In this document: piece after piece, positions 262 to 14,413 of the stretch
Position numbering within the stretch: the first letter of the stretch is position 1
Layout: each line of letters opens with the position of its first letter
Assembly (NCBI GenBank): GCA_022786545.1
Contig: JALFXV010000087.1
Location: 1 to 53,331 of the forward strand
DNA: 53,331 bases
Reading direction: 5' to 3'
Origin: Selenomonadaceae bacterium
GTDB lineage: Bacteria; Bacillota; Negativicutes; Selenomonadales; Selenomonadaceae
Notes under the pieces: generated by a model
What the model was told of the DNA's origin: nothing
Database searches by the model: none
Seen by the model: only the letters and a program-made list of their open reading frames with translations
Position numbers and translations under genes: made by a program

Positions 262-386
262 GAAATTTGTCAAGTGTTTTTGAAAAATTTTTAGGGGATA
301 TAAATATAAAAAGAACCTTGAACATTAGATTTTACCTATTGTTCAAGATTCCGAGAGAATACGTATTGTATAAAGAGGGAAGAAAA

Positions 387-1493
387 ATGGAAAAGATTAT
401 TATTTTTGGGTATGGCCTAGCATTAAAAAAATTATTGAAGGTTCATGAAAAGGAAATGGCTTGTTTAGACATAATAGAGGTTTGGGATAATGATGTAAAT
501 AAGCAAGGGATGGTAATAGAAATAAGTGGTAAAAAAATTATTGTCACCGAACCGCATAAAATATCCCAAGGAACGAAAATATACATATCATCTAAAAAGT
601 ATGAAGATGATATCAAATTAGATTTAAGTAATAGATTTGGCATTACAAATGAATATTATGTAGATTATTGGATATGGTATGAAGGTATAAAACAATGTAT
701 TATAGAAAGATATAAAGACGTTACAGATGAGAATATCAAAAGCATAATCAATTATTTACGGAAGAACAATTTGTATTATTTTTTTGGAGGATTAAAAGAA
801 AAATATGCAGGAAAAGAAAGGGAAGTTCCAATATATGAAGATAATCAAACTAAACTTTTGTATTCTTATTGGAACGGAAAAAAGATGTATATGAAACGCG
901 GATATACTAAATATCAGGCTCAGAGATATATAGCGTCACTTTTAATGGAACAGGATAGTAGGTCACCACATTTTTATGGAAATGCAAATTTTGATTATTG
1001 TGATAACGATGTATTGGTTGATATTGGTGCAGCAGAAGGATTTTTTGCATTAGATCACATAGATAAAGTGAAGAAAGTGTTATTAATAGAGGGTGATTCC
1101 GAATGGCTAGAGGCTTTACATGCTACATTTGATGGATATGGAGATAAAGTTGAATTTATAAATAAGTATATAGCTTCATATGATGATGATATGCATATAT
1201 CGCTTGATAGTTTTAAAGACACTATAACTATTATAAAAATGGATATAGAGGGTGCGGAGATGGATGCATTGTTGGGGGCTTCACAAACATTAAAAAATGA
1301 TAATCTGAAAATTATTGCATGTAGTTATCACAGGGAAAATGATGATTTAAATATAGCAAAAATACTATTGGATAATGGATTTTTAGTAAAATATTCACCT
1401 GGGTATATGTATTGGGGAACATTGAGGCAAGGAGAACATAATGCGGATTTACGGCATGGTTTGGTAATTGGATGTAAAAATAATGAAATGTAA
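387..1493 (+). CDS. FkbM-family methyltransferase with N-terminal Rossmann-like domain
   Basis: This protein probably O-methylates a sugar or glycan using S-adenosylmethionine. Residues 1-100 are a small Rossmann-like domain opening KIIIFGYG with a later WDND. Residues about 200-350 are an FkbM methyltransferase: motif I VLVDIGAAEGFFALD near 205-220 and the family motif IKMDIEGAEMDALLGA near 283. An upstream TTG would lengthen the frame to 267, but ATG 387 has a GAGGGAAG ribosome binding site and starts directly at the Rossmann strand, so I chose it. It is the first gene of a compact operon (11 bp to the next). Its coding sequence is much more AT-rich than the housekeeping genes further on, which suggests acquisition by transfer. 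The FkbM call is firm; the substrate is unknown. Confidence 0.85.
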   Translation: MEKIIIFGYGLALKKLLKVHEKEMACLDIIEVWDNDVNKQGMVIEISGKKIIVTEPHKISQGTKIYISSKKYEDDIKLDLSNRFGITNEYYVDYWIWYEGIKQCIIERYKDVTDENIKSIINYLRKNNLYYFFGGLKEKYAGKEREVPIYEDNQTKLLYSYWNGKKMYMKRGYTKYQAQRYIASLLMEQDSRSPHFYGNANFDYCDNDVLVDIGAAEGFFALDHIDKVKKVLLIEGDSEWLEALHATFDGYGDKVEFINKYIASYDDDMHISLDSFKDTITIIKMDIEGAEMDALLGASQTLKNDNLKIIACSYHRENDDLNIAKILLDNGFLVKYSPGYMYWGTLRQGEHNADLRHGLVIGCKNNEM

Positions 1494-1504
1494 GGATTGT
1501 TAGT

Positions 1505-3040
1505 ATGTTTGAAAAAGAAAAAAGCGATATTTTGAAAAATGTATCAAAGTATAATAAGGTTATTATATATGGTATCGGTGCGTGGGGAAAGCGGATTTTT
1601 ACTTGGTTGGAAGAAGCTGGTTTGTCTAATCGTATAGTGGCCGTTGTGGATAATGATGAAGGTGAAAAGTTTGGTGAATTACTGGGAAGCTTTCGTATTT
1701 GCAAATTAGTGGATGTACATGTTCGCTATGATGCTATAATTATAGCATCCATTGTAAATAAAGTAGCCATTCAAGAACGACTGGATAGATATTTTGCTTC
1801 TTTTACTACAAAACCTATATATATTTTTATTTGTAGTAAAACTGCCGAAAAGAAGTTTTCAGCAGAGGAATATGAGACGTATTTACGCTATTTACAAAGT
1901 CGATATTCCAAGAAAAAGACTGATTTTGTTGGAATAACAAAGGATGATTATTTGTACCAAGATGGCGATCCTAGAATTATTGCTTGGTATTTGCCACAAT
2001 ATTATACTTTTGAATTAAATAATAGATTTCATGGAACAGGGTTTACAGAATGGACTAATACTGCCCAAGCTATACCATTATTTTATGGACATGAACAGCC
2101 ACATATCCCCTACGATCTTGGCTTTTATCGTTTAGAAAATATTGCTACATTATACAGGCAAGCTGAATTAGCCCGTAAATACGGAATATATGGCTTTTGT
2201 TTTCATTATTACTGGTTTTCAGGATATCGTATAATGGAGCAGCCTCTTAAGATGTTGCTGGAAAACAAGGACATAAATATTCATTACTGCATTAATTGGG
2301 CAATGGAAAATTGGACAGTTAATTGGGATGGTGGTAAATATGATTTAATGTGTAAGCAAAATTATACACATAATGATGTGGAAAAATTTATGAATGATAT
2401 ATTGCCATTTTTTTGTGATGAAAGATATATAAAAATAGATGGGAAACCAGTAATTATGTTTTACAGGATATCAGCCATAGGTAAAGAAAATTTCATTGAT
2501 ATGCTTGCTAGGATGCGGGAATTTTCAAAAAGGAATGGATTTCCTGATATTTATGTAATGGTATGTGATTGCGATAATTTTGATTATGATGTAACTTGTT
2601 TAGGGGCAGATGCACTTGTGCAGTATGCTCCCGCAAAGTTATGCCAAAATACTAAAGAATTGCATATTGAGGGATATATAGATCCTAGATTTAGAGGAAG
2701 CATACGGGATGCTCAGGAGATGATTAAGTCAAAGAGATATTTAAATGAGGTTGCTAGTAAAGAATATTATAGATCAGCATTGGTTGGTTTTGATAATACT
2801 GCTAGGAGATTGCAGTTCACATCATTTATATTACATAATATGACAGCAGAATTATATAAAGATTGGCTTAAGAATATTATTATTGAAAGTCGATCAATTC
2901 ATACCAGCGAAAAAAACTATGTTTTTGTTGCCTCATGGAATGAGTGGGCAGAAGGTTCACATTTAGAACCAGATGTTTTTCATGGATATGCGTATTTACA
3001 GGCAACAAAGGAAGCCTTGGAAGAATGCAGGGAGCTATAG
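1505..3040 (+). CDS. WbsX-type glycan protein (GH99-like) with N-terminal Rossmann-like domain
   Basis: Residues about 17-110 form a Rossmann-like domain (KVIIYGIGAWGKR, then VVDND and IIIASI). Residues about 155-505 match the WbsX family of O-antigen and surface-glycan clusters, which has a glycoside-hydrolase-99-like TIM barrel. Recognisable blocks are IIAWYLPQYY, FTEWTN, FHYYWFSG, INWAMENWT and the C-terminal FVASWNEWAEGSHLEPD. WbsX proteins are usually annotated as glycosyltransferases, but the activity of most is not established. The gene is AT-rich and lies 11 bp after the FkbM gene and 33 bp before the next, so the three are probably one transcript. No signal peptide is present, so a cytoplasmic role is likely. 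Confidence 0.85.
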   Translation: MFEKEKSDILKNVSKYNKVIIYGIGAWGKRIFTWLEEAGLSNRIVAVVDNDEGEKFGELLGSFRICKLVDVHVRYDAIIIASIVNKVAIQERLDRYFASFTTKPIYIFICSKTAEKKFSAEEYETYLRYLQSRYSKKKTDFVGITKDDYLYQDGDPRIIAWYLPQYYTFELNNRFHGTGFTEWTNTAQAIPLFYGHEQPHIPYDLGFYRLENIATLYRQAELARKYGIYGFCFHYYWFSGYRIMEQPLKMLLENKDINIHYCINWAMENWTVNWDGGKYDLMCKQNYTHNDVEKFMNDILPFFCDERYIKIDGKPVIMFYRISAIGKENFIDMLARMREFSKRNGFPDIYVMVCDCDNFDYDVTCLGADALVQYAPAKLCQNTKELHIEGYIDPRFRGSIRDAQEMIKSKRYLNEVASKEYYRSALVGFDNTARRLQFTSFILHNMTAELYKDWLKNIIIESRSIHTSEKNYVFVASWNEWAEGSHLEPDVFHGYAYLQATKEALEECREL

Positions 3041-3073
3041 AGATTTTATCTATAAAAAACTATGGAGAGTGTT

Positions 3074-5149
3074 ATGGTAAAGAGTGAAAAGTGCAATGAA
3101 TATTGTGTGTTGCCTGTAGATACTTTTATTGAACAAGGTGATGTCCCCAAAAGTAAGGTTGTAATAATTATTCATTTGTTTTATATCGATACATTAAGTT
3201 ATTATTGTAATTATATAGAACATATACCTAGTTTTGTGGACGTTTACATTACTTATTCTAATGATTTTGTTAAAGAAAGAATTTTATATTTTTTGGGAGG
3301 CAAGCGAAAAGTTGATTTTATAAAAAAAGATAATAGAGGACGAGACATCAGTGCATTACTTGTGGCAAGCAGAGAAATATTGCTAAGATATGATTATGTA
3401 GCTTTTTTACATGATAAAAAAAGTATTGATAGAATTTATGATAGAGATGTGTTTAATTGGTCTGATTTAATGTGGAAAAATACAATAGGTTCAGAAGAAT
3501 ACATATCAAATATCATATATATGCTTGCTAAAAGGAAAGATATAGGATTATTGGTTCCTCCTATATTTGTAGGAAATGTTCTGTCATATGGTATAAGTGA
3601 TTTGTGGGGGGAGAATTTTACTAATACTGTTGAGTTATGTCATAGGATAAATGTTAAAGCAAATATTGATGTGGAGATATCGCCAATATCTATCGGAACT
3701 GTTTTTTGGGCACGCTGCGATGCGATAAAAAAATTGTTGATGTATAAGTGGCGATATGAAGATTTTCCAATAGAACCAATGTCTAGGGATGGAACGATTA
3801 ATCATGCGGTAGAGCGATGTTTGGCATATGTGGCTGAAGATTCAGGTTATAAGACAAGTTTTGTGATTAATAGTCAATATGCAGGATATAGATTAAATTA
3901 TTTTGAAAAATTGTTAAAAGATTATTTTTATTTGGACAATTGTGAACCTATTTATAAAGTTAGAAACCGTGTAAGGATAAAAAAGCTACCTAGGGAGATT
4001 CGTAATACTAACAATTACAGAAAAAATGTTTATATTTTTGGGGCTGGAAGGTCACTTGAAAATAATTATAGTAAAATTTGTGAAAATTCTTATGTCAATA
4101 TTGTAGGATTTGTTGAAAATGATGTGGATAAGTGGCACCAGGTTTTACATGGTATAAATGTCATATCTCCGCAGGAGTTGATACACAAAGATTTTGATGG
4201 TGTAGTTGTGTCATCAAATAAGTATTACAAAGAGATTGAAACTCAGTTGGTTTTACTTGGAGTGCCAAGATGGAATATATTGCGATTATATCAAGTTTTT
4301 AATAAAGCGGTTTGTTATGCATTGCCAAAACTTAAGTGGTGTAATTATCCAAGAAAAGTTGAGCATAGGTCTAATACTATAGGTCTTTATGTAATTGCAC
4401 ATAAGGAGTTTTGTAATGCCAAATTGTTTATTAATAATCCCTATGGATATAAATTGTTTTTTACAGGTGAGAATTCTGCATATTTAGGTATTAGATATCA
4501 TTGTGAGTATGAAATGTTGGAAAATGATAATATAGCAGATTTTAATTTGTTAATTAATGAGTGTACTGCAATATATTGGATGTGGAAACATTCCAAGGTA
4601 GATATTATTGCTATAAATCATTATAGGAGGTTTTGGAAAAAAGAGGGAAATTCAGATAATATTATAAATAACATTGTGCATGCAGATGATATACAAAAAT
4701 ATTTGTCAGAGTATGATCTGATAGTTAATGAACCCTTTGTCAGAGAAGAATATAATGGCATATGCGATCAGTTGTATGAAACCATAGATGATGTAGCATT
4801 TGAGGAAGGCTGGAACATAATGCTTGATGTAATTCGAGAGAAACAGCCTGATTATTTGGTCTATTTTAGGCAGGTTATGGAAGGATGCATATTTTATCCA
4901 TGCAATATGTTTGCGACTCGCAAGGAGATTTTTGATGAATATTGTGAGTGGCTTTTTTCGTTTATAGTAGATGCAGCAAAGAGGATAGATGTAAGCAATT
5001 ATGATGATTATAGTAAACGAGTGATTGGATTCTTTGCCGAGAGAATGCTTACGGTATGGCTTATGGCGCATAATTATAAAATTAAGACATTACCAATGGT
5101 ATTGCTGGATGATTCTGAGCTAGTAGAGGAACAGAAATGTGATGAGTAA
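3074..5149 (+). CDS. Three-domain glycan protein: RgpF-like, Rossmann-like, DUF4422
   Basis: The protein (about 691 residues) joins two glycosyltransferase-type modules. Residues about 25-295 resemble rhamnan synthesis protein RgpF (VVIIIHLFYIDTLSYYCNY, KKDNRGRDISALLVA, YDYVAFLHDKKS). Residues about 317-415 are the Rossmann-like domain (NVYIFGAGRSLENN, GFVENDVDKW). Residues about 435-660 match DUF4422, a capsule and LPS glycosyltransferase family (LYVIAHKEF, then NHYRRFW). ATG 3062 is possible, but GGAGAG at 3064-3069 fits the second ATG at 3074 better. The 3' end overlaps the next gene by 8 bp. AT-rich coding suggests the same foreign origin as its two upstream neighbours. Confidence 0.85.
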   Translation: MVKSEKCNEYCVLPVDTFIEQGDVPKSKVVIIIHLFYIDTLSYYCNYIEHIPSFVDVYITYSNDFVKERILYFLGGKRKVDFIKKDNRGRDISALLVASREILLRYDYVAFLHDKKSIDRIYDRDVFNWSDLMWKNTIGSEEYISNIIYMLAKRKDIGLLVPPIFVGNVLSYGISDLWGENFTNTVELCHRINVKANIDVEISPISIGTVFWARCDAIKKLLMYKWRYEDFPIEPMSRDGTINHAVERCLAYVAEDSGYKTSFVINSQYAGYRLNYFEKLLKDYFYLDNCEPIYKVRNRVRIKKLPREIRNTNNYRKNVYIFGAGRSLENNYSKICENSYVNIVGFVENDVDKWHQVLHGINVISPQELIHKDFDGVVVSSNKYYKEIETQLVLLGVPRWNILRLYQVFNKAVCYALPKLKWCNYPRKVEHRSNTIGLYVIAHKEFCNAKLFINNPYGYKLFFTGENSAYLGIRYHCEYEMLENDNIADFNLLINECTAIYWMWKHSKVDIIAINHYRRFWKKEGNSDNIINNIVHADDIQKYLSEYDLIVNEPFVREEYNGICDQLYETIDDVAFEEGWNIMLDVIREKQPDYLVYFRQVMEGCIFYPCNMFATRKEIFDEYCEWLFSFIVDAAKRIDVSNYDDYSKRVIGFFAERMLTVWLMAHNYKIKTLPMVLLDDSELVEEQKCDE

Positions 5150-7496
5150 TAAGTTATTACATAAGGCTGATAAGCTGATAAGCGAACTCCCCCAGGGTTT
5201 ATTTCGCTGGTATGACTTCCCGGCGGGAAGTTCACGGTTGCTGATATGTGCGGATGATGTTGAAAAAAATAAATTCATATCATTGCCAGAGGGCATGGGT
5301 ATGTGTCGTGTGAAAGATGTACAGTATCTTTCTGGTATTTACGACTATATTATTGGAATTGGCATTTTGGATAGAAGCTTGGCTCCTGAAGGATTTCTTC
5401 AGGAGCTTTTGGTGCATTTGTCAGAAGATGGCAGGCTGTTGCTTTTTGCAGAGAACAGGCTGGCTATTAAGTATTTTTGTGGTGAAAAGGATGCCTATAC
5501 TCAGAAAGTCTTGGATGGTATAGATAATTACAGATATTATTCACAGCAATTCTTGGAACAGTTAGGCGGCAGGGCGTATGCAAAAGCTGAGCTGAGAGAA
5601 ATCATAAGTAATGCGGGCTTGTACAGTTCCTTTTATTCTGTCTATCCGGCATTGGAAAGACCGCAGCTTATTATAGCGGATAATTATTTGCCTAAGGAAA
5701 ATTTGAATATAAGGATTTTTCCGCAGTACAGGTCTCCGGATACTGTTTTTTTGCATGAGGAATGGCTTTATGATACGTTGGCGGAAAATGGCTTGCTACA
5801 TAGTATGGCAAATGGCTTTTTTATTGAGTGTAGCAGGAAAAAGATTGCCCATGAGTACAAGCAGATAACGGTTTCTCCAGATAGGGGGCATGATAATGCT
5901 TTGGCTACTATTTTGCGTAGTGATGGCAAAGTTGTGAAAAAGGCACTGTATTCAGAAGGCAAATGTACAATAGAGCAGCTTTATAAAAATAACGTATATT
6001 TGCAGCAGCGAGGTATTCCTATGGTGGAGATGAAGCTGCAAGGAGATGCTGCCGAGATGCCGCTTGTTGAACAGGAAACAGCCTTGTCTCATTTTCGCAA
6101 AATATTTACTCAGGATTTGGAAAAACTAATGGTTGAGCTGCAGCAGTTTTGGGAGCTTATTTTGCAATCATCGGAGCATGTGCCATATTCGGAGATAAAT
6201 TGGTATCAGTTTGTGCCGGGCTGGGAGAAGCTAAATATGCAGGACACCGCTGGTGATAAGTGGTATAATCTGGCACATGGTACGATTGAGGAACAGCAGT
6301 CTATTGGTCCGATTTTGCGGCATGGGTATATTGATTTGATTGCCTTGAATTGTTTTTATAAAGATGGCAGATTTACTTTTTACGACCAGGAGTGTTATAT
6401 GGAAAATCTGCCGGCAAAGGTGATTTTACTGCGTACCATTGATTGTATTTATGATGAACCGGCTAAAGAAGCAATTTTTCCTAAGGCAAAAATGTTGGCA
6501 CGATTTGGCTTGGTAGAGCTTGAAAAGGAATGGCGTAATTTTGCCTGGGCATTTTTGACAAAGTTACGTAATGAAAAAGAGCTGGCTGTGTATCATAAAA
6601 AGGTCAGGGCAGATTGGCAGATAGTTCATGAAAATCGCCAGCGAATGAATTATTCCCAGAGTTCTTATGATAAATATTATTCGCATATTTTTGATGATAT
6701 AGATGGCAGAGAATTGTTTTTGTTCGGTTCAGGTGTATTTGCCAAGCGTTTTGTGGATAATTATGGGAGCAAGTTGCCAATACGGGGATTTTTGGATAAT
6801 AACCCAGCTAGGTGGGGAAAAACCTGTGAAGGCATGGAAATATTTTCTCCTTCCTATGTGCAGGGGAGGGAAACTCGTTGCAAGGTTATTATCTGCATAA
6901 AGGATTATGAGCCGGTATTGCGGCAATTGCAGGATATGGGGGTATTTTATATTTCTGTTTATAATCCGGGGATAATATATCATTTCCCTAGTGTGCGTAA
7001 AGATAAAATGGACCATAATGCGAGCCGGACAGTGGCAAGTTCCAAGAAGTATGGTATTGGTTATGTAGCAGGCGTATTTGACATGTTTCATCGTGGGCAT
7101 CTCAATTTGTTGCAACGGGCGAAGGAACAGTGTGATTATTTGATTGTCGGAGTTTGTACGGATGAGCAGGTGTTCAATAATAAGCGTACCAAGCCTATGA
7201 TTTCTTTTGCTGATAGATTGGCTATTGTTCAAGGATGCAGATATGTGGATGAAGCGGTGGAGATACCGTATGATAATTCATCGACAGAGTATGCCCATCA
7301 GCAGTATCATTTTGATGCGCAGTTTTCCGGTAGTGATTATGAGGATGACCCTTATTGGCTGGCAGCTAGGGAGTATCTGCGCAAAAATGGGGCTGATTTG
7401 GTATTTTTTCCCTATACTGAGTCGGTGAGCTCCACGAAGCTGAAGCTGCAGCTGAAGGAAGCGGATAAAGCCGGGAGAGGAGATGGCGCAAAGTGA
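5142..7496 (+). CDS. Four-module protein: methyltransferase-like, kinase-like, Rossmann-like, cytidylyltransferase
   Basis: This 784-residue protein appears to combine several glycan-precursor steps. Residues about 15-240 look like a SAM-methyltransferase-type domain (IIGIGILDRS, LSEDGRLLLFAENRLAIKYF). Residues about 245-440 resemble a phosphotransferase or kinase fold (WYQFVPGWEK, HGYIDLIALNCFY, FYDQE). Residues about 520-615 are the Rossmann-like domain (ELFLFGSGVFAKRF, FLDNNPARWG). Residues about 633-775 are a TagD/GCT-type cytidylyltransferase with the HxGH motif in GVFDMFHRGHLNLL and an SSTKLK block matching the ISSTxI motif. ATG 5142 was chosen over GTG 5139 because AGAGGAAC lies nine bases upstream. 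Its stop overlaps the next start. The cytidylyltransferase call is firm, the kinase-like one tentative. Confidence 0.8.
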   Translation: MSNKLLHKADKLISELPQGLFRWYDFPAGSSRLLICADDVEKNKFISLPEGMGMCRVKDVQYLSGIYDYIIGIGILDRSLAPEGFLQELLVHLSEDGRLLLFAENRLAIKYFCGEKDAYTQKVLDGIDNYRYYSQQFLEQLGGRAYAKAELREIISNAGLYSSFYSVYPALERPQLIIADNYLPKENLNIRIFPQYRSPDTVFLHEEWLYDTLAENGLLHSMANGFFIECSRKKIAHEYKQITVSPDRGHDNALATILRSDGKVVKKALYSEGKCTIEQLYKNNVYLQQRGIPMVEMKLQGDAAEMPLVEQETALSHFRKIFTQDLEKLMVELQQFWELILQSSEHVPYSEINWYQFVPGWEKLNMQDTAGDKWYNLAHGTIEEQQSIGPILRHGYIDLIALNCFYKDGRFTFYDQECYMENLPAKVILLRTIDCIYDEPAKEAIFPKAKMLARFGLVELEKEWRNFAWAFLTKLRNEKELAVYHKKVRADWQIVHENRQRMNYSQSSYDKYYSHIFDDIDGRELFLFGSGVFAKRFVDNYGSKLPIRGFLDNNPARWGKTCEGMEIFSPSYVQGRETRCKVIICIKDYEPVLRQLQDMGVFYISVYNPGIIYHFPSVRKDKMDHNASRTVASSKKYGIGYVAGVFDMFHRGHLNLLQRAKEQCDYLIVGVCTDEQVFNNKRTKPMISFADRLAIVQGCRYVDEAVEIPYDNSSTEYAHQQYHFDAQFSGSDYEDDPYWLAAREYLRKNGADLVFFPYTESVSSTKLKLQLKEADKAGRGDGAK

Positions 7497-8785
7497 AGAT
7501 ATATTTTCGTGGCTTGGCGGATATATTTCGTCCCAGGCAGATTTTTGCAGATTTGGCACAGGCGAAGATATCCGGGGTAGTTTTGCCGCTGGGAGCGTAT
7601 TTCTATTGGGATGTAGATACAGAAGGCATACCTCGCAAAAGGGAGATTTTGCCTTGCCAGATGAAGATTGATGTGGATGCTGATTATGGAGCTTTGGCAG
7701 CTTTCGCGGAGCCATGCCTTTCGGCTATGCAGAAATATGGTCTGACAGCAGAGGTTTTTGATATGCCATCGTTAGGGGGTAATCTGCGTCAGGTCAAGTG
7801 GATTAAGCAGTGGGGCTGGGAGCGTGTTTGTGATGTGCTGAAGCATGTTCAGACAGTGGTCTTGCAGTTTGCCTCAGAAAAAGGCATTGGTACTTCTTTT
7901 GTATATTATATGAATCCCCCGGAAATGGATAATGAGGAAATCTATGCGTTTAATAAGGATTATTATGTTTGTCTGGGCAGGATGGCTGCTGATTTGGGAA
8001 TAACTTTGCTGTTTACCAATCAGCTGGATAGCGTGGGCGGTCATATTGTCCGCGGCAGCCTGGCTGATGGCAGTGAGATGGCCTGGTGGGTTGACGTGCT
8101 GAATGAAGCTGTAGGGGCAGAGGTTTTTGGGGTGAATCTCCACACAGGCAATGCCAACCTGTGCGGACAGGATATACAGATGTTTATCCGTGAGGTGGGG
8201 CATCGTCTCAAGGCTGTGACAGTATGTGATAATGATGGCAGGCATTATGCTTCGCTGCTGCCTTTTAGTACGTTCCGCAGGGGGGAGTATGCTACTGATT
8301 GGCTGGGCTTGATTCGTGGCATGCGTGATGTGGATTTCGATGGCAGCCTTATTTTTGAGGCAAATGATACGATTTATGGGTATTCGCCGCTCCTGCGGCC
8401 TCACGTACTGCAGCTGGCGAAGGCGGTAGCGGATTATCTGGCATGGCAGGTTTCCCTGGAGCTGGAGATGAAGCGGCATGACAAGATTGTGCTTTTTGGT
8501 GCAGGCAATATGTGTCGAAACTATATGAAGAATTATGGTGATAAATATCCGCCACTGTTTACCTGTGATAACAATTCTGCCCGCTGGGGGGATATGTTCT
8601 GCGGCTTGGAGATAAAAAATCCGCAGGTTTTGCGTGATTTGCCTGATGATGTTTGCGTGTTTATCTGCAATGTGTATTATCGGGAAATTGAGGCACAGCT
8701 GAGGGAGCTGGGGGTCAAGAATATAGCCTTTTTTAATGATGAGTATATGCCGACCTTTCATTATGACAGGCTGGAAAGGGGATAA
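7493..8785 (+). CDS. TIM-barrel protein lacking metal ligands, with C-terminal Rossmann-like domain
   Basis: Residues 1-325 are a TIM barrel related to sugar-phosphate isomerase/epimerase (AP-endonuclease-2) proteins and clearly paralogous to the next gene: GHIVRG, HTGNANLCG, CDNDG, TDWLGLIRGMR line up with GHIVEG, DTGHANLVG, HDNDG, TDWEGFIRGLR. The metal-binding residues of the neighbour are replaced here (T175 for E163, H217 for D205, N220 for H208, T243/C245 for H231/H233), so this barrel is probably not a metal-dependent isomerase. Residues about 327-425 are the Rossmann-like domain (KIVLFGAGNMCRNYM, TCDNNSARWG). It starts at GTG 7493 with GGGAGAGGAG about ten bases upstream, and the GTGA overlaps the upstream stop, so translation is coupled. 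A binding or scaffold role is inferred. Confidence 0.8.
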   Translation: MKIYFRGLADIFRPRQIFADLAQAKISGVVLPLGAYFYWDVDTEGIPRKREILPCQMKIDVDADYGALAAFAEPCLSAMQKYGLTAEVFDMPSLGGNLRQVKWIKQWGWERVCDVLKHVQTVVLQFASEKGIGTSFVYYMNPPEMDNEEIYAFNKDYYVCLGRMAADLGITLLFTNQLDSVGGHIVRGSLADGSEMAWWVDVLNEAVGAEVFGVNLHTGNANLCGQDIQMFIREVGHRLKAVTVCDNDGRHYASLLPFSTFRRGEYATDWLGLIRGMRDVDFDGSLIFEANDTIYGYSPLLRPHVLQLAKAVADYLAWQVSLELEMKRHDKIVLFGAGNMCRNYMKNYGDKYPPLFTCDNNSARWGDMFCGLEIKNPQVLRDLPDDVCVFICNVYYREIEAQLRELGVKNIAFFNDEYMPTFHYDRLERG

Positions 8786-8787
8786 AT

Positions 8788-9756
8788 ATGCTGGAGATTG
8801 GTATTCAGACTTGGAACTCTGTGAGTGATGAGGAGCCGGATATGGGCTTTCGCAGGCTGGCAGATTGTGGTTTTAGGCATGTTGACTTTAGTTTGCATAC
8901 ATATTTGAAAAATTCTACTTTGTATCAAAACAAGAGAAATAATTTTTTTAGCCGGTCAAGGACAGAGCTGGAGGAGTATTTTACTCCGCACAAAAATGCT
9001 GCCAAGGCGGCCGGGATAAATGTATTTCAAATGCACATGCCCTACCCGAACTATGTGCCGCTGGGCAGTGATGAGCTGAATGATTATTTGCGGAATATAG
9101 TTGCTCCCCGCAGCATGGAGCTTTGCAGTTTTTTTGAGAGCAAATTTATTGTGATGCATGGCTTCAAGCTTGCCAAGTATCTGGGCTCTGAAGAAGCGGA
9201 ATGGGAGCTGACAGAGGGCTTTATCAGGAATCTTGCAGGCATGGCAAAGGAAATGGGGATTACAATCTGTATTGAAAATCTCTATGGAGGCATGGCTGGA
9301 CATATTGTTGAGGGACCGTGCTGTAATGCGCATCGCTGTGTGGAGCGCATTGACAGGCTGAACGATGAATATGGGGCGGAGATTTTGGGCTTTTGCTTTG
9401 ATACAGGGCATGCCAATCTGGTAGGGCTTGATTTTGAAAAGTTCATTACTGCCCTTGATTACCGGCTAAAGGTGCTTCACATTCACGATAATGATGGCAT
9501 GGCGGATTTGCATCAGCTGCCTTATGCTTTTACTCGTGATAGAACAAATTCCAGCTCGACGGATTGGGAGGGGTTCATCCGTGGCCTGCGCAATATCAAG
9601 TATGCCGGGGTGCTGAATTTTGAAACGGGGCCTGCCTTGAAGGCTTTTCCAGAATATTTGCAGGATGATGTTTTGAGGCTGCTGGCAAAGACAGGGCGAT
9701 ATTTTGCAGGGCGTATTGACGAAAGCATTGATAAAGAACCGCGCTCGAAGCTATAA
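8788..9756 (+). CDS. Sugar phosphate isomerase/epimerase family TIM-barrel protein
   Basis: This 322-residue protein matches the xylose-isomerase-like TIM-barrel family whose members isomerise or epimerise sugars and polyols. Candidate metal ligands are present: E163 in CIENLYGG, D205 and H208 in FDTGHANLVG, H231/H233 in HIHDND, and a late Glu in LNFETG. H83 and H124 (QMHMPY, VMHGF) also fit the barrel pattern. It begins two bases after the previous gene with ribosome binding site GGAAAGGGG. Unlike its degenerate paralogue upstream it has no Rossmann-like domain. It is the last gene of the glycan operon, 86 bp before the first flagellin. Substrate unknown; a sugar acid, polyol or aminosugar precursor for the cytidylyltransferase is a reasonable guess. 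Confidence 0.85.
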   Translation: MLEIGIQTWNSVSDEEPDMGFRRLADCGFRHVDFSLHTYLKNSTLYQNKRNNFFSRSRTELEEYFTPHKNAAKAAGINVFQMHMPYPNYVPLGSDELNDYLRNIVAPRSMELCSFFESKFIVMHGFKLAKYLGSEEAEWELTEGFIRNLAGMAKEMGITICIENLYGGMAGHIVEGPCCNAHRCVERIDRLNDEYGAEILGFCFDTGHANLVGLDFEKFITALDYRLKVLHIHDNDGMADLHQLPYAFTRDRTNSSSTDWEGFIRGLRNIKYAGVLNFETGPALKAFPEYLQDDVLRLLAKTGRYFAGRIDESIDKEPRSKL

Positions 9757-9799: not shown

Positions 9800-9842
9800 A
9801 AGAAATATACGATGACAACCGTAAGGGCATGGAGTGATTGCA

Positions 9843-12710
9843 ATGGTGATTTTTAATAATATGGCGGCTATGTCTGCTTTGAACGAGACAAATCGCAATA
9901 CCAGCAAGTTGGAGAAGACTATCAGGCAAGCGACTTCTGGTATGAAGATTAATTCTGCCGGGGATGATGCTTCCGGCTACAGCATTTCGGAAAGAATGAA
10001 AGTGAGGATTCGTGCGCTAAATCAGAACGATGAAAATGTAAAAAAAGGTGAATCTTTGCTGAAGATTGCAGAGGGTGCAATTCAAAGCCAGATGAATTTG
10101 CTTAAAACAGTTAAGGAACGTGTTATCAATGCTCATAATGATTCCAATACAGAGGCTGATAGGGCAATTATCCAGAAAGAGATAGATCAATGTTATGAGC
10201 AAATGTCATCAATAGCTTATGATACGGATTTTGATGGTAAGAAATTGCTGGTAGGCAATAAAGTGGAAGAGAAAATTATTAGCTGGATTGTTAACGATAC
10301 TGCTGTTTTGGCAGAAGATAGTGATATACCAGGTTTGCTGCATGATGCTACTTATGGTGATTTGGATGGTGAGCCAGGGCCATTTGCTATCTTTGGTTCG
10401 GTTGATGATGGAGATTATAAGGATTCAAGTGTATATTACAGCACACCATACGATGGCTATAACACCTATATCTATACAGATCCTACCTCTGAGTTGCTTG
10501 GCACGTCAGCTAATGCCGGTACTGCTCCGGATAGAATGTGGGGAGGTACGGCTGGTACTCAGAATACAACAGATATTTCATTGGCAGCTTACAGCAATGT
10601 GGCGGATTTGGATGACAAGTCTTTTCGTTTGGTTACTAGCTATATGCCGTATAACTTTGTGTTGACTACGGATACAACAGAAAAATATTCCGGTAGCGAT
10701 TATCTTATTGATTTGAATGCTTGTAATACAGTAGATGATGTAGCGGCAAGAATTGCGGCAAAAATTAATGGTTCTCTTAGCAGTTATTTTACGGCTGCTT
10801 CTAGTGGTAAGACAGTTACATTTACCACGAAGGATGATGGTGCAGTATCAAATAATTACACAGCTGTTGATTGGACTGCATTAGGTGGGACTACTAATAT
10901 TCCGGGACGTGCAAAAGCTGATAAGACGGGCTTGTCAATAGGAAATTTTTCAGGCGGAGCGGATGCAGTCTATAAGACTGTGTATCGGCCAGACCCGAAC
11001 GATCCGGATTTGCAAGTTCCGGTGAGTGTTCTTGACGTTCCAGCTAAAAAAGCCAAGCTGGAGATAAATGGCATCAATACTGTCGCATCTGGGAGCGGCA
11101 TTACAATTAGTGGTGTCTGGTTGGATTATCGTTCGTATAGTCCTGCTTATTTGGCATTTGTGGATGGAAGTTCCGGATTATCATATGATGCTGCCAAAGG
11201 CTGCAATACAATTGGCAAGGATTATACTGGCTCATTTAGCATAGGCTGTTTGGATTGCACGATGTCGGGAGGAAAGCTGACTGCGGTTGCAAAAAATGCA
11301 TGTGCTGATGGCAATAGTATAACCATTAAGAATGGAATTGATGAAGTTCCTTCGCAGGTGATTAACTATACCGCAACAACGGGAATTGGCGGTATTACAA
11401 ATCACGCCAGTGGCAGCGATGGCAACACGGCTCATTGGGATATAGATTTGTCCGGGTGTACGCTGGATGATGTTATTGATAGTTATTTGGGAAAATCTAT
11501 TCGGGTGAGGTATACCGGGGCACCATATCAGTCAGACGAATATGAGTTTATTGATACAGGTTCTTCCGATGCTGTGGATGGTTTATGGAAAATTTCCAAC
11601 AATGTTATCGATTTAAATAATGTCAGAACGGCTGTAAATAGTGGACAGAGTGTGGCGGAGGCTTTTGCGAATTTGCTGCAAAGCAAGTTTGGTGCAGCGC
11701 ATACTAAGCTGTTGCAAGATGTAGGCGGTAACACTAAAGGGATTAGCTTTCTAGATACTAATTCCGGCGTGGTTGGTAATAGTGCGCAAATAATTGTCAG
11801 ATCAGGTGAGTTGCGTTCGTATGCGATAGATTGGAAGCAGTGGGCAACTAGTCAGGGGATAACGGATATACCGGCTGCACTCAATGAAAAAGGATTTCGG
11901 TTCTATTGTCCCACTGATTCGTCCCAGTGGGTTAATGTGCGTTTTATTGATGGTCTTAATCATGAGGAGGATGATCGACCTGAAAGTGGAACGGAAGTTT
12001 TGGATATAAAGACTGTGACAATTGATATACAGGGCATAGATACAGTTGAGGATTTAGTAAGCAAGATAGACAATGATTTAGGAAGTTATTTGGCAAATAC
12101 ATATAAGCACAATCTATTGTTGGCATCTGACCCTGTTAATGGCACTACCACTATATACGATCAGAGAAGAAAACATGTAAAAAACAATAGTGGCTATGAT
12201 AATCAGGAGTTAGGTGCTAAAATTGCTACAGGCGTAATGGATAATGTCGTTAAAGATACGCGCAATGTGTATGTAAACGAACTTAATATTCAGCATGCTG
12301 ATAAGGCCAGTGTCAACATTCAAATAAAAATTCCTCAGACTACAATGGACCATATATTTGGTTATAAGGAGGGTACCTATCATATAACAGATTATAATGT
12401 CCTGGACAGTAAGATGCGGGAAAAGCTTTTAGGTGACCCGCCTGAAAAGGGCATTTTGGATACAGGATTGGAATATTTGACAGATGCGGAGACTCTTATT
12501 GGTGCCCAAATAAATCATATGCGTATGGCAGATAATAATATAACTACGCAAAGTGAAAATGTCACCTCGTCTTGCAGTGTGCTTCAGGATGCGGATATAG
12601 CGAGGGTGGCTATGGAGCAGGCCAAGTATAACCTTCTTCAGCAGGCTTCCCAGTCCATGCTGGCTCAGGCTAATCAGACACCAAATGGAGTTCTTGGTCT
12701 TTTGCAGTAA
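9843..12710 (+). CDS. Flagellin with very large central insertion
   Basis: This is a structural subunit of the flagellar filament. The N-terminal D0/D1 region (residues 1-140, with GDDASGYSISERMK) and the C-terminal D1/D0 region (last 60 residues, ending LLQQASQSMLAQANQTPNGVLGLLQ in pieces) are canonical. Between them lie about 700 residues of variable surface domain, giving 955 residues against 270-500 for most flagellins. The insert is rich in Ser, Thr, Gly, Asp and Asn, as expected for an exposed, possibly glycosylated region. It contains cysteines, rare in flagellins, including a CLDC pair at C469/C472. ATG 9843 is chosen because GGAG at 9831-9834 lies eight bases upstream; GTG 9834 overlaps that site. 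The neighbouring glycan genes suggest it is a glycosylation substrate. Confidence 0.93.
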   Translation: MVIFNNMAAMSALNETNRNTSKLEKTIRQATSGMKINSAGDDASGYSISERMKVRIRALNQNDENVKKGESLLKIAEGAIQSQMNLLKTVKERVINAHNDSNTEADRAIIQKEIDQCYEQMSSIAYDTDFDGKKLLVGNKVEEKIISWIVNDTAVLAEDSDIPGLLHDATYGDLDGEPGPFAIFGSVDDGDYKDSSVYYSTPYDGYNTYIYTDPTSELLGTSANAGTAPDRMWGGTAGTQNTTDISLAAYSNVADLDDKSFRLVTSYMPYNFVLTTDTTEKYSGSDYLIDLNACNTVDDVAARIAAKINGSLSSYFTAASSGKTVTFTTKDDGAVSNNYTAVDWTALGGTTNIPGRAKADKTGLSIGNFSGGADAVYKTVYRPDPNDPDLQVPVSVLDVPAKKAKLEINGINTVASGSGITISGVWLDYRSYSPAYLAFVDGSSGLSYDAAKGCNTIGKDYTGSFSIGCLDCTMSGGKLTAVAKNACADGNSITIKNGIDEVPSQVINYTATTGIGGITNHASGSDGNTAHWDIDLSGCTLDDVIDSYLGKSIRVRYTGAPYQSDEYEFIDTGSSDAVDGLWKISNNVIDLNNVRTAVNSGQSVAEAFANLLQSKFGAAHTKLLQDVGGNTKGISFLDTNSGVVGNSAQIIVRSGELRSYAIDWKQWATSQGITDIPAALNEKGFRFYCPTDSSQWVNVRFIDGLNHEEDDRPESGTEVLDIKTVTIDIQGIDTVEDLVSKIDNDLGSYLANTYKHNLLLASDPVNGTTTIYDQRRKHVKNNSGYDNQELGAKIATGVMDNVVKDTRNVYVNELNIQHADKASVNIQIKIPQTTMDHIFGYKEGTYHITDYNVLDSKMREKLLGDPPEKGILDTGLEYLTDAETLIGAQINHMRMADNNITTQSENVTSSCSVLQDADIARVAMEQAKYNLLQQASQSMLAQANQTPNGVLGLLQ

Positions 12711-12734
12711 TTTTTTAGTTCGATATTATTTTTG

Positions 12735-12766
12735 TGCGGTCTTTAGAAAAGGCCGCAGTTTTTTTA
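12735..12766 (+). terminator. rho-independent terminator of flagellin 1
   Basis: TGCGGTCTTT (12735-12744) pairs with AAAGGCCGCA (12748-12757) with one G-T pair, followed by TTTTTTTT. It lies 25 bp after the first flagellin stop and separates the two flagellin transcripts. Confidence 0.85.
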
Positions 12767-12889
12767 TAACCGTTTAATAGTATAAAATATTTTTAATTTG
12801 GCTGATTTTCTGTTAGAATGTAACTGATAGATTGTAGAAAAATTTCGGTAAAAGTGTAATTTTGTAAACACTGCAGGGGAGGGCTTGCG

Positions 12890-14413
12890 ATGAAAATCAA
12901 TAATAATATTGCGGCACTGTCTGTCCTGAATGAACTGAACCGCAATAGCAATAAGTTAGGGTGTATGGCAGAGAAGGCAGCTTCTGGTGTGTGCATTAAT
13001 TTTGCTGGTGATGATGCGTCGGGGTATAGCATATCGGAAAAGATGCGTGTGCAGCTCAGAAGTTTGGCACAGGATGTGGAGAATGTGCAGACAGGGCGCA
13101 ACATGGTGGCTGTAGCAGAGGGGGGGGTTCAGGAGATTATTGAAAACTTACGATATATCAAGGAAAAGGCGATTAATGCAGCCAATGACCATAATACAGA
13201 TGCAGATAGGGCATTTATCCAGAAGGAAGTGGATGCCCGTCTGGAGGAAATTAATGATATTGCCAGCAGCACGACATATAATGGCAGAATCTTGCTGAAT
13301 GGAGATTATGGGGAAGGCAAAGTTCTTGGGGTGTCTGTTAAGCCTGGCTATAGTATGGCAGCGAATACCCTGAACAACCTGACCTCGGCATTTTCCATTG
13401 TTGGGGGGGATGGTCAGGAAACGTCAGATCCAGCGTATCAGGTTATGAAGTTTAACAATATTGTTGGCAATAAGGCGTATCAGGATACTGTGGGGTATGA
13501 TGATACTGTACTGAAAGTTGATTTTAGCGGAGCCGGGGCTCCGTCAGGAAGCTTGTCTTATCCTGCATCCTTTGATAGGCAGGGGTTTTGCATGGGTTGC
13601 TGGGCTTGCAAGGCGTACATAAATATTGTCTTTGATGCCAGCATGCGTCCTTCTGAGTCGGTTGTGGTATTGGATGATACTGGTGAGACTGCGGCGGGGG
13701 AACATTCAGCCAATCAGGTTAATTGGTCATATTCCTATGTGATAGGCATCAAGGGGGCAACTGATGAGAAAAGTCTCAGCAAGGCTTTTTATGATGGTGT
13801 GATTGCCGCTAATGACAAAGAAAATTCCTGCCCTGAAGGCTGGGATGTGACTGTGAATAAGGATGGTGAGGGGTACTTTGGTTATCCCTGGGATTGGACG
13901 CACAATACCAGGATTGCTTATGAGGATGGTCAGGTGCTATTGAAGCGGGAAACTACTTTTCCGTGGGTGTTTTATGATGCGGGGGCCTTTGGCGTGGATA
14001 TTCAGCGTGATGCGAATCAGCCGAAGCTGAATATCCATACAGGTGTGAAGGCAAGCCAGAATATTGCGCTTACAATAAATGATATGCATACCAGGGCTTT
14101 AGGTATAGAAGGCCTCAGCCTGCGTAGCCGGGGAAAGGCAGAGGCGGCTCTAAGCACAATCGATTCAGCTATAGAATATGCCTTGGATGAGAATACCCGT
14201 ATGGGAGCATATCAGGTCAGGCTGAAGCAGACGGAGGCAAATCTCGTTACAAGCAATGAAAATACTACAGCGGCAGAGTCAGTCATCCGGGATGCGGATA
14301 TGGCAAGAACCATGATGGAGTATGCCAAATACAATGTTTTGCAGCAGGCATCTCAGTCCATGCTGGCTCAGGCTAATTCGCTGCCGGATGGTGTGCTGGG
14401 ACTGTTGCAGTAA
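12890..14413 (+). CDS. Second flagellin, cysteine-containing
   Basis: A second filament subunit of 507 residues. The N-terminus (MKINNNIAALSVLNELNRN, GDDASGYSISEKMRV) and the C-terminus (SQSMLAQANSLPDGVLGLLQ) are canonical. The central region of roughly 270 residues is not similar by eye to the insert of flagellin 1. It has cysteines in the conserved N-terminal helix (C25, C34) and a CMGCWAC cluster at C234, C237 and C240. The ribosome binding site GGGGAGGG precedes ATG 12890. The gene has its own upstream region after the flagellin 1 terminator. The two proteins could form a mixed or phase-specific filament; this is inference. Confidence 0.93.
   Translation: MKINNNIAALSVLNELNRNSNKLGCMAEKAASGVCINFAGDDASGYSISEKMRVQLRSLAQDVENVQTGRNMVAVAEGGVQEIIENLRYIKEKAINAANDHNTDADRAFIQKEVDARLEEINDIASSTTYNGRILLNGDYGEGKVLGVSVKPGYSMAANTLNNLTSAFSIVGGDGQETSDPAYQVMKFNNIVGNKAYQDTVGYDDTVLKVDFSGAGAPSGSLSYPASFDRQGFCMGCWACKAYINIVFDASMRPSESVVVLDDTGETAAGEHSANQVNWSYSYVIGIKGATDEKSLSKAFYDGVIAANDKENSCPEGWDVTVNKDGEGYFGYPWDWTHNTRIAYEDGQVLLKRETTFPWVFYDAGAFGVDIQRDANQPKLNIHTGVKASQNIALTINDMHTRALGIEGLSLRSRGKAEAALSTIDSAIEYALDENTRMGAYQVRLKQTEANLVTSNENTTAAESVIRDADMARTMMEYAKYNVLQQASQSMLAQANSLPDGVLGLLQ

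Follow-up and report, generated by a model that had tools for sequence, protein, structure and literature searches.

A Rossmann-Type Domain Repeated in Putative Flagellin Glycosylation Enzymes of Selenomonadaceae and Related Bacteria

Described relatives of the domain and of the pathway

Soluble protein-glycosylation pathways are usually pictured as separate enzymes meeting by diffusion. For the flagellin glycans of C. difficile and Pseudomonas, a CDP-(N-methyl)threonine donor was proposed; a methyltransferase and a cytidylyltransferase would produce it and a TagF-like transferase would consume it, the phosphate step being reported as phosphoserine-phosphatase-like (PMC10714395, PMC11833859). 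The published passages on these glycans describe separate small enzymes (C. difficile type A, cd0240-cd0244; Pseudomonas b-type, pa1088-pa1091) and make no mention of the domain considered below (PMC10714395, PMC11833859). In contrast, the stretch of DNA analysed here (the window; 53,331 nucleotides of a Selenomonadaceae genome) encodes a protein, called the hub, in whose single chain the folds of a methyltransferase, a kinase and a cytidylyltransferase are united, the kinase fold standing in place of the phosphatase-like step. TagF-like proteins are common to the published model and to 27 of the 80 loci found with the hub (34 of these 38 proteins carry the domain). The hub and its putative CDP-linked donor may be likened to the C. 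difficile and Pseudomonas systems in their enzyme logic, on which the comparison with type A is based.

The hub and four neighbouring proteins share a domain of about 90 residues, one copy per host protein, for which we use the working name R. Its fold is already known: by profile comparison, R belongs to the PglD_N/C2185-like_N/CoA_binding_3/Methyltransf_14/Rex-type Rossmann superfamily. A profile of 103 R copies matched the solved structures 3nkl (E 1.5e-11), Rex (1.3e-9), 2g6t (1.1e-8), WbaP (4e-6), VioB (6e-6) and the sugar C-methyltransferase 4rv9 (1e-3), with homology to members of the PglD_N/CoA_binding_3/Rex superfamily over the whole domain; the PDB relatives are mostly nucleotide-binding or sugar-nucleotide enzymes. 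Pfam places subsets of R copies in PglD_N, C2185-like_N or Methyltransf_14, and none of the window copies exceeds a curated Pfam cut-off. In fold searches with the host models, the matches listed were to TIM, cytidylyltransferase, methyltransferase and kinase structures, with none to R among them.

PglD_N (PF17836; the PglD, NeuD and VioB acyltransferases) resembles R in its Rossmann-like fold, GxG motif and acidic pair after strand 2, and 23 of the 103 copies match it at E <= 0.01. Its cut-off of 23.4 bits is exceeded in a single related host (L065:11216 with 24.4 bits), while the best window score is 13.8 (copy 2). In PglD-type proteins the domain sits on a left-handed beta-helix acyltransferase; this fusion is absent from the R hosts examined, and the modules of the window hosts are of the methyltransferase, glycosyltransferase, kinase, cytidylyltransferase and TIM types. 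C2185-like_N (PF22674; PDB 2g6t), an N-terminal fusion module, is the nearest Pfam model for window copy 3, which scores 22.4 bits against a cut-off of 27 that some relatives pass (e.g., 27.8 in L071 and 37.6 in G035). It is matched by 16 of the 103 copies (best E 8e-18), although in the alignment 2g6t is without the GxG loop, unlike R, and we know of no pathway-wide tagging described for this entry.

The best PDB profile match, covering nearly the whole domain, is the N-terminal, CoA_binding_3-type domain of FlaA1/UDP-quinovosamine dehydrogenase and WbaP (3nkl, 30us), which to our knowledge occurs on membrane-linked dehydratases or phosphoglycosyl transferases and not serially on soluble transferases. 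The C-terminal domain of the C-methyltransferase (Methyltransf_14; 4rv9), a sugar-nucleotide enzyme domain, is matched by eight of the 103 copies (one at E 1e-41) and, unlike R, is known within one enzyme family only. Rex repressors carry a winged-helix DNA-binding domain N-terminal of the NADH domain, whereas the window hosts carry other modules; copy 2 gives a weak Rex match restricted to the Rossmann part. The broad R profile does reach Rex, and the five-copy result in the window is independent of such drift towards any Rossmann protein.

Literature searches of open-licence papers found no description of enzymes tagged with R in this manner, and the serial tagging of flagellar glycan islands is apparently undescribed. 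The preliminary description of this DNA likewise knew of no system built this way. The domain itself is not new and has its relatives in Pfam and the PDB.

Five homologous copies in the window

The five R hosts are encoded by consecutive genes (Table 1). Base 1 of the window is the start of the contig, and the cluster may extend upstream, with further R genes possibly located on another contig. The longest reading frame of the first gene begins with TTG at 267; the ATG at 387, which was given as its start previously, is the most likely one. The two adjacent flagellins are unlike each other and have large middle insertions.

Table 1. Genes and R domains at the beginning of the window
Feature	Positions	Strand	Evidence
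FkbM-type methyltransferase with N-terminal R	387..1493	+	PF05050 (Methyltransf_21) E 2.5e-8
R copy 1 (FkbM protein, N-terminal)	384-689	+	profile match; independent profile E 6.7e-6
WbsX-type glycosyltransferase with N-terminal R	1505..3040	+	PF14307 (Glyco_tran_WbsX) E 2.4e-102
R copy 2 (WbsX protein, N-terminal)	1547-1834	+	profile match; independent profile E 6.5e-9
RgpF - R - DUF4422 two-transferase protein	3062..5149	+	PF05045 E 1.3e-59, PF14393 E 1.7e-46
R copy 3 (RgpF/DUF4422 protein, central)	4019-4324	+	profile match; independent profile E 2.7e-20; C2185-like_N E 1.5e-4, under that family's cut-off
Hub: methyltransferase fold - APH-like kinase fold - R - glycerol-3-phosphate-type cytidylyltransferase	5139..7496	+	AlphaFold, Foldseek, PF01467 (CTP_transf_like) E 1e-18
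R copy 4 (hub, four-module protein, central)	6705-6992	+	profile match; independent profile E 3.5e-23
Degenerate ketohexose-epimerase-like TIM barrel with C-terminal R (TIM+R)	7493..8785	+	AlphaFold; UlaE match; weak Pfam AP_endonuc_2 match (xylose-isomerase-like barrel)
R copy 5 (TIM protein, C-terminal)	8477-8764	+	profile match; independent profile E 1e-29
R-free TIM-barrel protein resembling sugar isomerases/epimerases, with apparently intact catalytic motifs	8788..9756	+	PF01261 E 1e-19; conserved neighbour of TIM+R gene
Flagellin, 958 aa	9834..12710	+	flagellin-like N and C termini by sequence; as query matches relatives' flagellins
Flagellin, 507 aa	12890..14413	+	flagellin-like N and C termini by sequence; as query matches relatives' flagellins

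Protein 5 alone, used as a tblastn query, recovered copy 4 at E 2.7e-11 and copy 3 at E 1e-5. An independent profile, built from the R copies of loci L105-L184 with the window excluded, detected exactly five copies and nothing else of note among 314 stop-to-stop six-frame stretches of the window, and gave no match to 2000 shuffled proteins. These two results exclude a chance similarity of the five copies.

The preliminary description had proposed that one Rossmann-like domain recurs in five different, otherwise unrelated proteins of one pathway. The profile located all five copies at the places given there; the hosts indeed belong to different families (Methyltransf_21, Glyco_tran_WbsX, RgpF with DUF4422, CTP_transf_like and AP_endonuc_2 in Pfam), and the greatest similarity is that between copies 4 and 5 (about 32-34% identity), as was claimed. 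The homology and the common fold were borne out, and the suggested genome search revealed strong clustering elsewhere; neither unrelated folds nor scattered single copies, which were to speak against the proposal, were encountered. The observation is confirmed and is larger than was first stated.

The AlphaFold models of protein 4 (the hub; 58 sequences, pLDDT 90.3, pTM 0.83) and protein 5 (47 sequences, pLDDT 89.5, pTM 0.89) present R as a b-a-b-b-a-b-a-b domain, the strands of protein 5 being at residues 331-335, 354-358, 372-375, 387-391 and 411-413. The b-a-b-a-b order of the Rossmann superfamily is seen in this protein together with the glycine loop after strand 1 (residues 336-338) and the acidic residue after strand 2 (residue 359).

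Clustering of R, its association with flagellins and the history of its fusions

With the five-copy profile, R was found at E <= 1e-4 in 66 of the 151 genomes of Selenomonadaceae, and 40 neighbourhoods contained up to 13 genes with R in one 20 kb stretch. Within a sample of this family, 103 of the 132 listed copies lie less than 10 kb from another (2.7 expected at random); for other families of the phylum the number is 55 of 59 (1.7 expected), Rex-sized matches of about 200-250 aa being mostly left out of the latter count. A scan with the hub alignment, biased towards hub clusters in a way that the profile searches of the 151 family genomes and of other families are not, yielded 80 named loci, mostly from Lachnospiraceae and Selenomonadaceae, with one from Treponema; two or more R copies occur in 76 of them (maximum 11). 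In loci having at least three R hosts, R is carried by 622 of the 793 ORFs (>= 180 aa, between the outer R genes), or 78%. That R could be a general feature of the enzyme class is ruled out by the GT2 genes of the window's genome that lie outside its two R contigs and are R-free.

The second R group of this genome (G000, contig C114; L063 4274-12374 and L064 9568-10677) includes an MptE/Maf-like protein with R (436 aa), and flagellins are located further on the same contig (42427, 71843). In some other loci, two R domains occur in single proteins (L069 11427, L070 1713, L071 10211 and 14903), the last of these being an R-FkbM-...-R protein of 910 aa.

The R cluster of the window is followed by flagellin genes, as is that of Anaerovibrio lipolyticus (L170). 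All 15 R-bearing genomes tested from other families encode flagellin, and ten of them (G265, G299, G365, G257, G341, G369, G184, G350, G310 and G227) do so on the same contig less than 45 kb from R; flagellin is also encoded in 19 of 20 genomes with the hub. Within the family, R is absent from all six flagellin-free genomes, a weak contrast that is uninformative by itself with 145 of the 151 genomes being flagellin-positive. The arrangement that marks a flagellin glycosylation island, glycan genes beside flagellin genes, is therefore present in the window (9834-14413), in L170 and in the ten genomes listed above, and the five window enzymes probably build the sugar coat of the bacterial flagellum.

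After masking of R, its partners formed 58 groups in the first set and 123 in a set of 612 hosts under stricter joining. They span at least 15 enzyme families and include GT2, GT4, GT8, GT9, TagF-like, WbsX, RgpF, DUF4422, DUF5672, TOD1/MUCI70, FkbM, TylF, radical SAM/SPASM, HAD and MptE-like proteins. The commonest in 99 sampled R hosts are GT2 (40), GT4 (14) and TagF-like (10) proteins, and the 25 most frequent families of this sample include none that makes sugar nucleotides; NTP transferases, epimerases and IspD are frequent in 84 untagged genes of the same clusters.

Within each partner family R is kept at one end (481 of 489). Copies on different partners are equally dissimilar in the same locus (21.8% identity) and in different loci (21.6%), while copies on the same partner in other loci are 35.9% identical. 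Since the identities and the fixed position agree in this, the fusions are old and family-specific and were not shuffled locally, and both findings rule out a recent duplication or shuffling inside the cluster. Of the suggestion that the domain was shuffled into the partners of a pathway, its presence on all five proteins has stood, but movement inside the cluster has not.

The high share of R-bearing proteins in the clusters is what would be expected if the R copies interact with one another or with a single shared partner, thereby assembling a glycan-synthesis complex, and the position of R in the chain, which is free between families, would agree with such docking. Nevertheless, same-cluster copies show no mutual matching in their identities and the conserved residues of R sit at the ligand edge (see below), and we regard docking as rather unlikely.

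Ligand binding by R and the roles of its hosts

In a Rossmann fold, the ligand edge is made up of the residues that directly follow the strands. In R these residues are more conserved than the rest of the domain (P 0.003 for TIM+R, 0.006 for the hub, 0.014 for all copies), which favours a ligand over docking. We suggest, with confidence divided about evenly for and against, that R is a shared nucleotide-type ligand-binding module, which recruits or gates the enzymes of the flagellin glycan. According to this suggestion, R was fused long ago, one partner family at a time, to most of the enzymes acting on the glycan or its donor in a cytoplasmic flagellin glycosylation pathway. At the C-terminal edge of its sheet, every R copy would accommodate a small ligand of the same type, with a nucleotide, or a nucleotide-activated sugar or alcohol, as the likeliest candidate. 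Binding would draw the enzymes to a shared pool of substrate, keep them there or gate them, and the members of an island would thereby cooperate. It is odd, if R binds one donor, that transferases with different donors share it.

The binding of NAD in the classical manner is doubtful for many copies. Among 202 R copies, the G-x-G glycines are retained in 98% and 95% and the Asp at the end of strand 2 in 80%, but the third position of the dinucleotide loop GxGxxG/A is Gly in only 47% (Ala in 24%); 98% of the TIM+R proteins have Cys there, and most hubs have Ala or Thr. It seems quite improbable, therefore, that R is a Rex-like redox or energy sensor switching flagellar glycosylation through NAD(H), as over half of the copies, and nearly all of those in the TIM+R and hub families, no longer have the third Gly, and the other R matches are sugar-nucleotide proteins. 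Arguments for such a sensor are the Rex match of the R profile (E 1e-9), the hits of this profile to Rex-sized proteins in many genomes and the retained Asp.

The hub, a protein of 785 residues with the cytidylyltransferase at its end, was resolved by Foldseek into modules similar to the methyltransferase 2p7i, the macrolide phosphotransferase 7w15 and the glycerol-3-phosphate cytidylyltransferase 1coz; its orthologues keep the kinase residues D399/N404/D416 and the cytidylyltransferase HxGH motif. The position of a kinase beside a cytidylyltransferase in this model suggests a CDP-linked donor. Perhaps, the hub phosphorylates an alcohol or amino-alcohol and converts it into such a donor; the chain would be attached to the neighbouring flagellins and completed there by the R-bearing transferases together with the FkbM methyltransferase.

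The barrel of the TIM+R protein is similar to UlaE (Z 25.4 over 263 residues, rmsd 3.0 in the fold search), and the position of its His metal ligand is occupied by Arg in 33 of 47 orthologues, in which conservation is far higher in R than in the barrel (3.43 vs 2.37 bits per column). The neighbouring R-free TIM protein (8788-9756) keeps its motifs, and the two genes form a pair conserved in most loci, possibly representing a pseudo-enzyme adaptor and its partner. In the docking hypothesis, the degenerate TIM+R protein would be the adaptor that brings in the intact one via barrel pairing; the conservation of R on a barrel with a lost metal His, next to an intact R-free neighbour in a conserved gene order, is in its favour.

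The other substrate to be considered is the acceptor. R might recognise the stem of the flagellin glycan, or a phosphodiester unit within it, since R is carried by chain-acting enzymes rather than by the common precursor enzymes, and the TagF-like proteins of the hub loci make phosphodiester-linked chains plausible. However, the hub and TIM+R look like precursor enzymes and yet carry R, and the pocket resembles a nucleotide pocket; this function appears improbable to us.

A wider and more tentative interpretation, which we consider possible but not probable, is that R represents a pathway tag, i.e., a single recognition module which over a dozen enzyme families acquired by independent fusions, and through which a whole soluble glycan pathway runs tag-assembled or substrate-tethered on flagellin. 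If true, its logic would be comparable to that of the carrier and docking domains of assembly-line synthases, here built from a nucleotide-type Rossmann domain. R marks about four in five proteins of the flagellar glycan islands in many Bacillota, including gut Lachnospiraceae and related rumen bacteria. Its binding partner would be the common thread of the pathway, and knowing the ligand would reveal the principle by which the pathway is organised and would probably disclose the chemistry of flagellar glycans that are as yet uncharacterised. R may also serve as a sequence marker for locating such islands and naming many of their "unknown" proteins, and the physical organisation of these pathways becomes a directly testable question.

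In several Lachnospiraceae, a pair of genes for proteins of about 237 and 350 aa is located just upstream of the hub (L109 8181-9990, L111, L112, L127, L146 and L171). The pair probably encodes an IspD-type cytidylyltransferase and an epimerase, hinting at a second CDP-linked donor.
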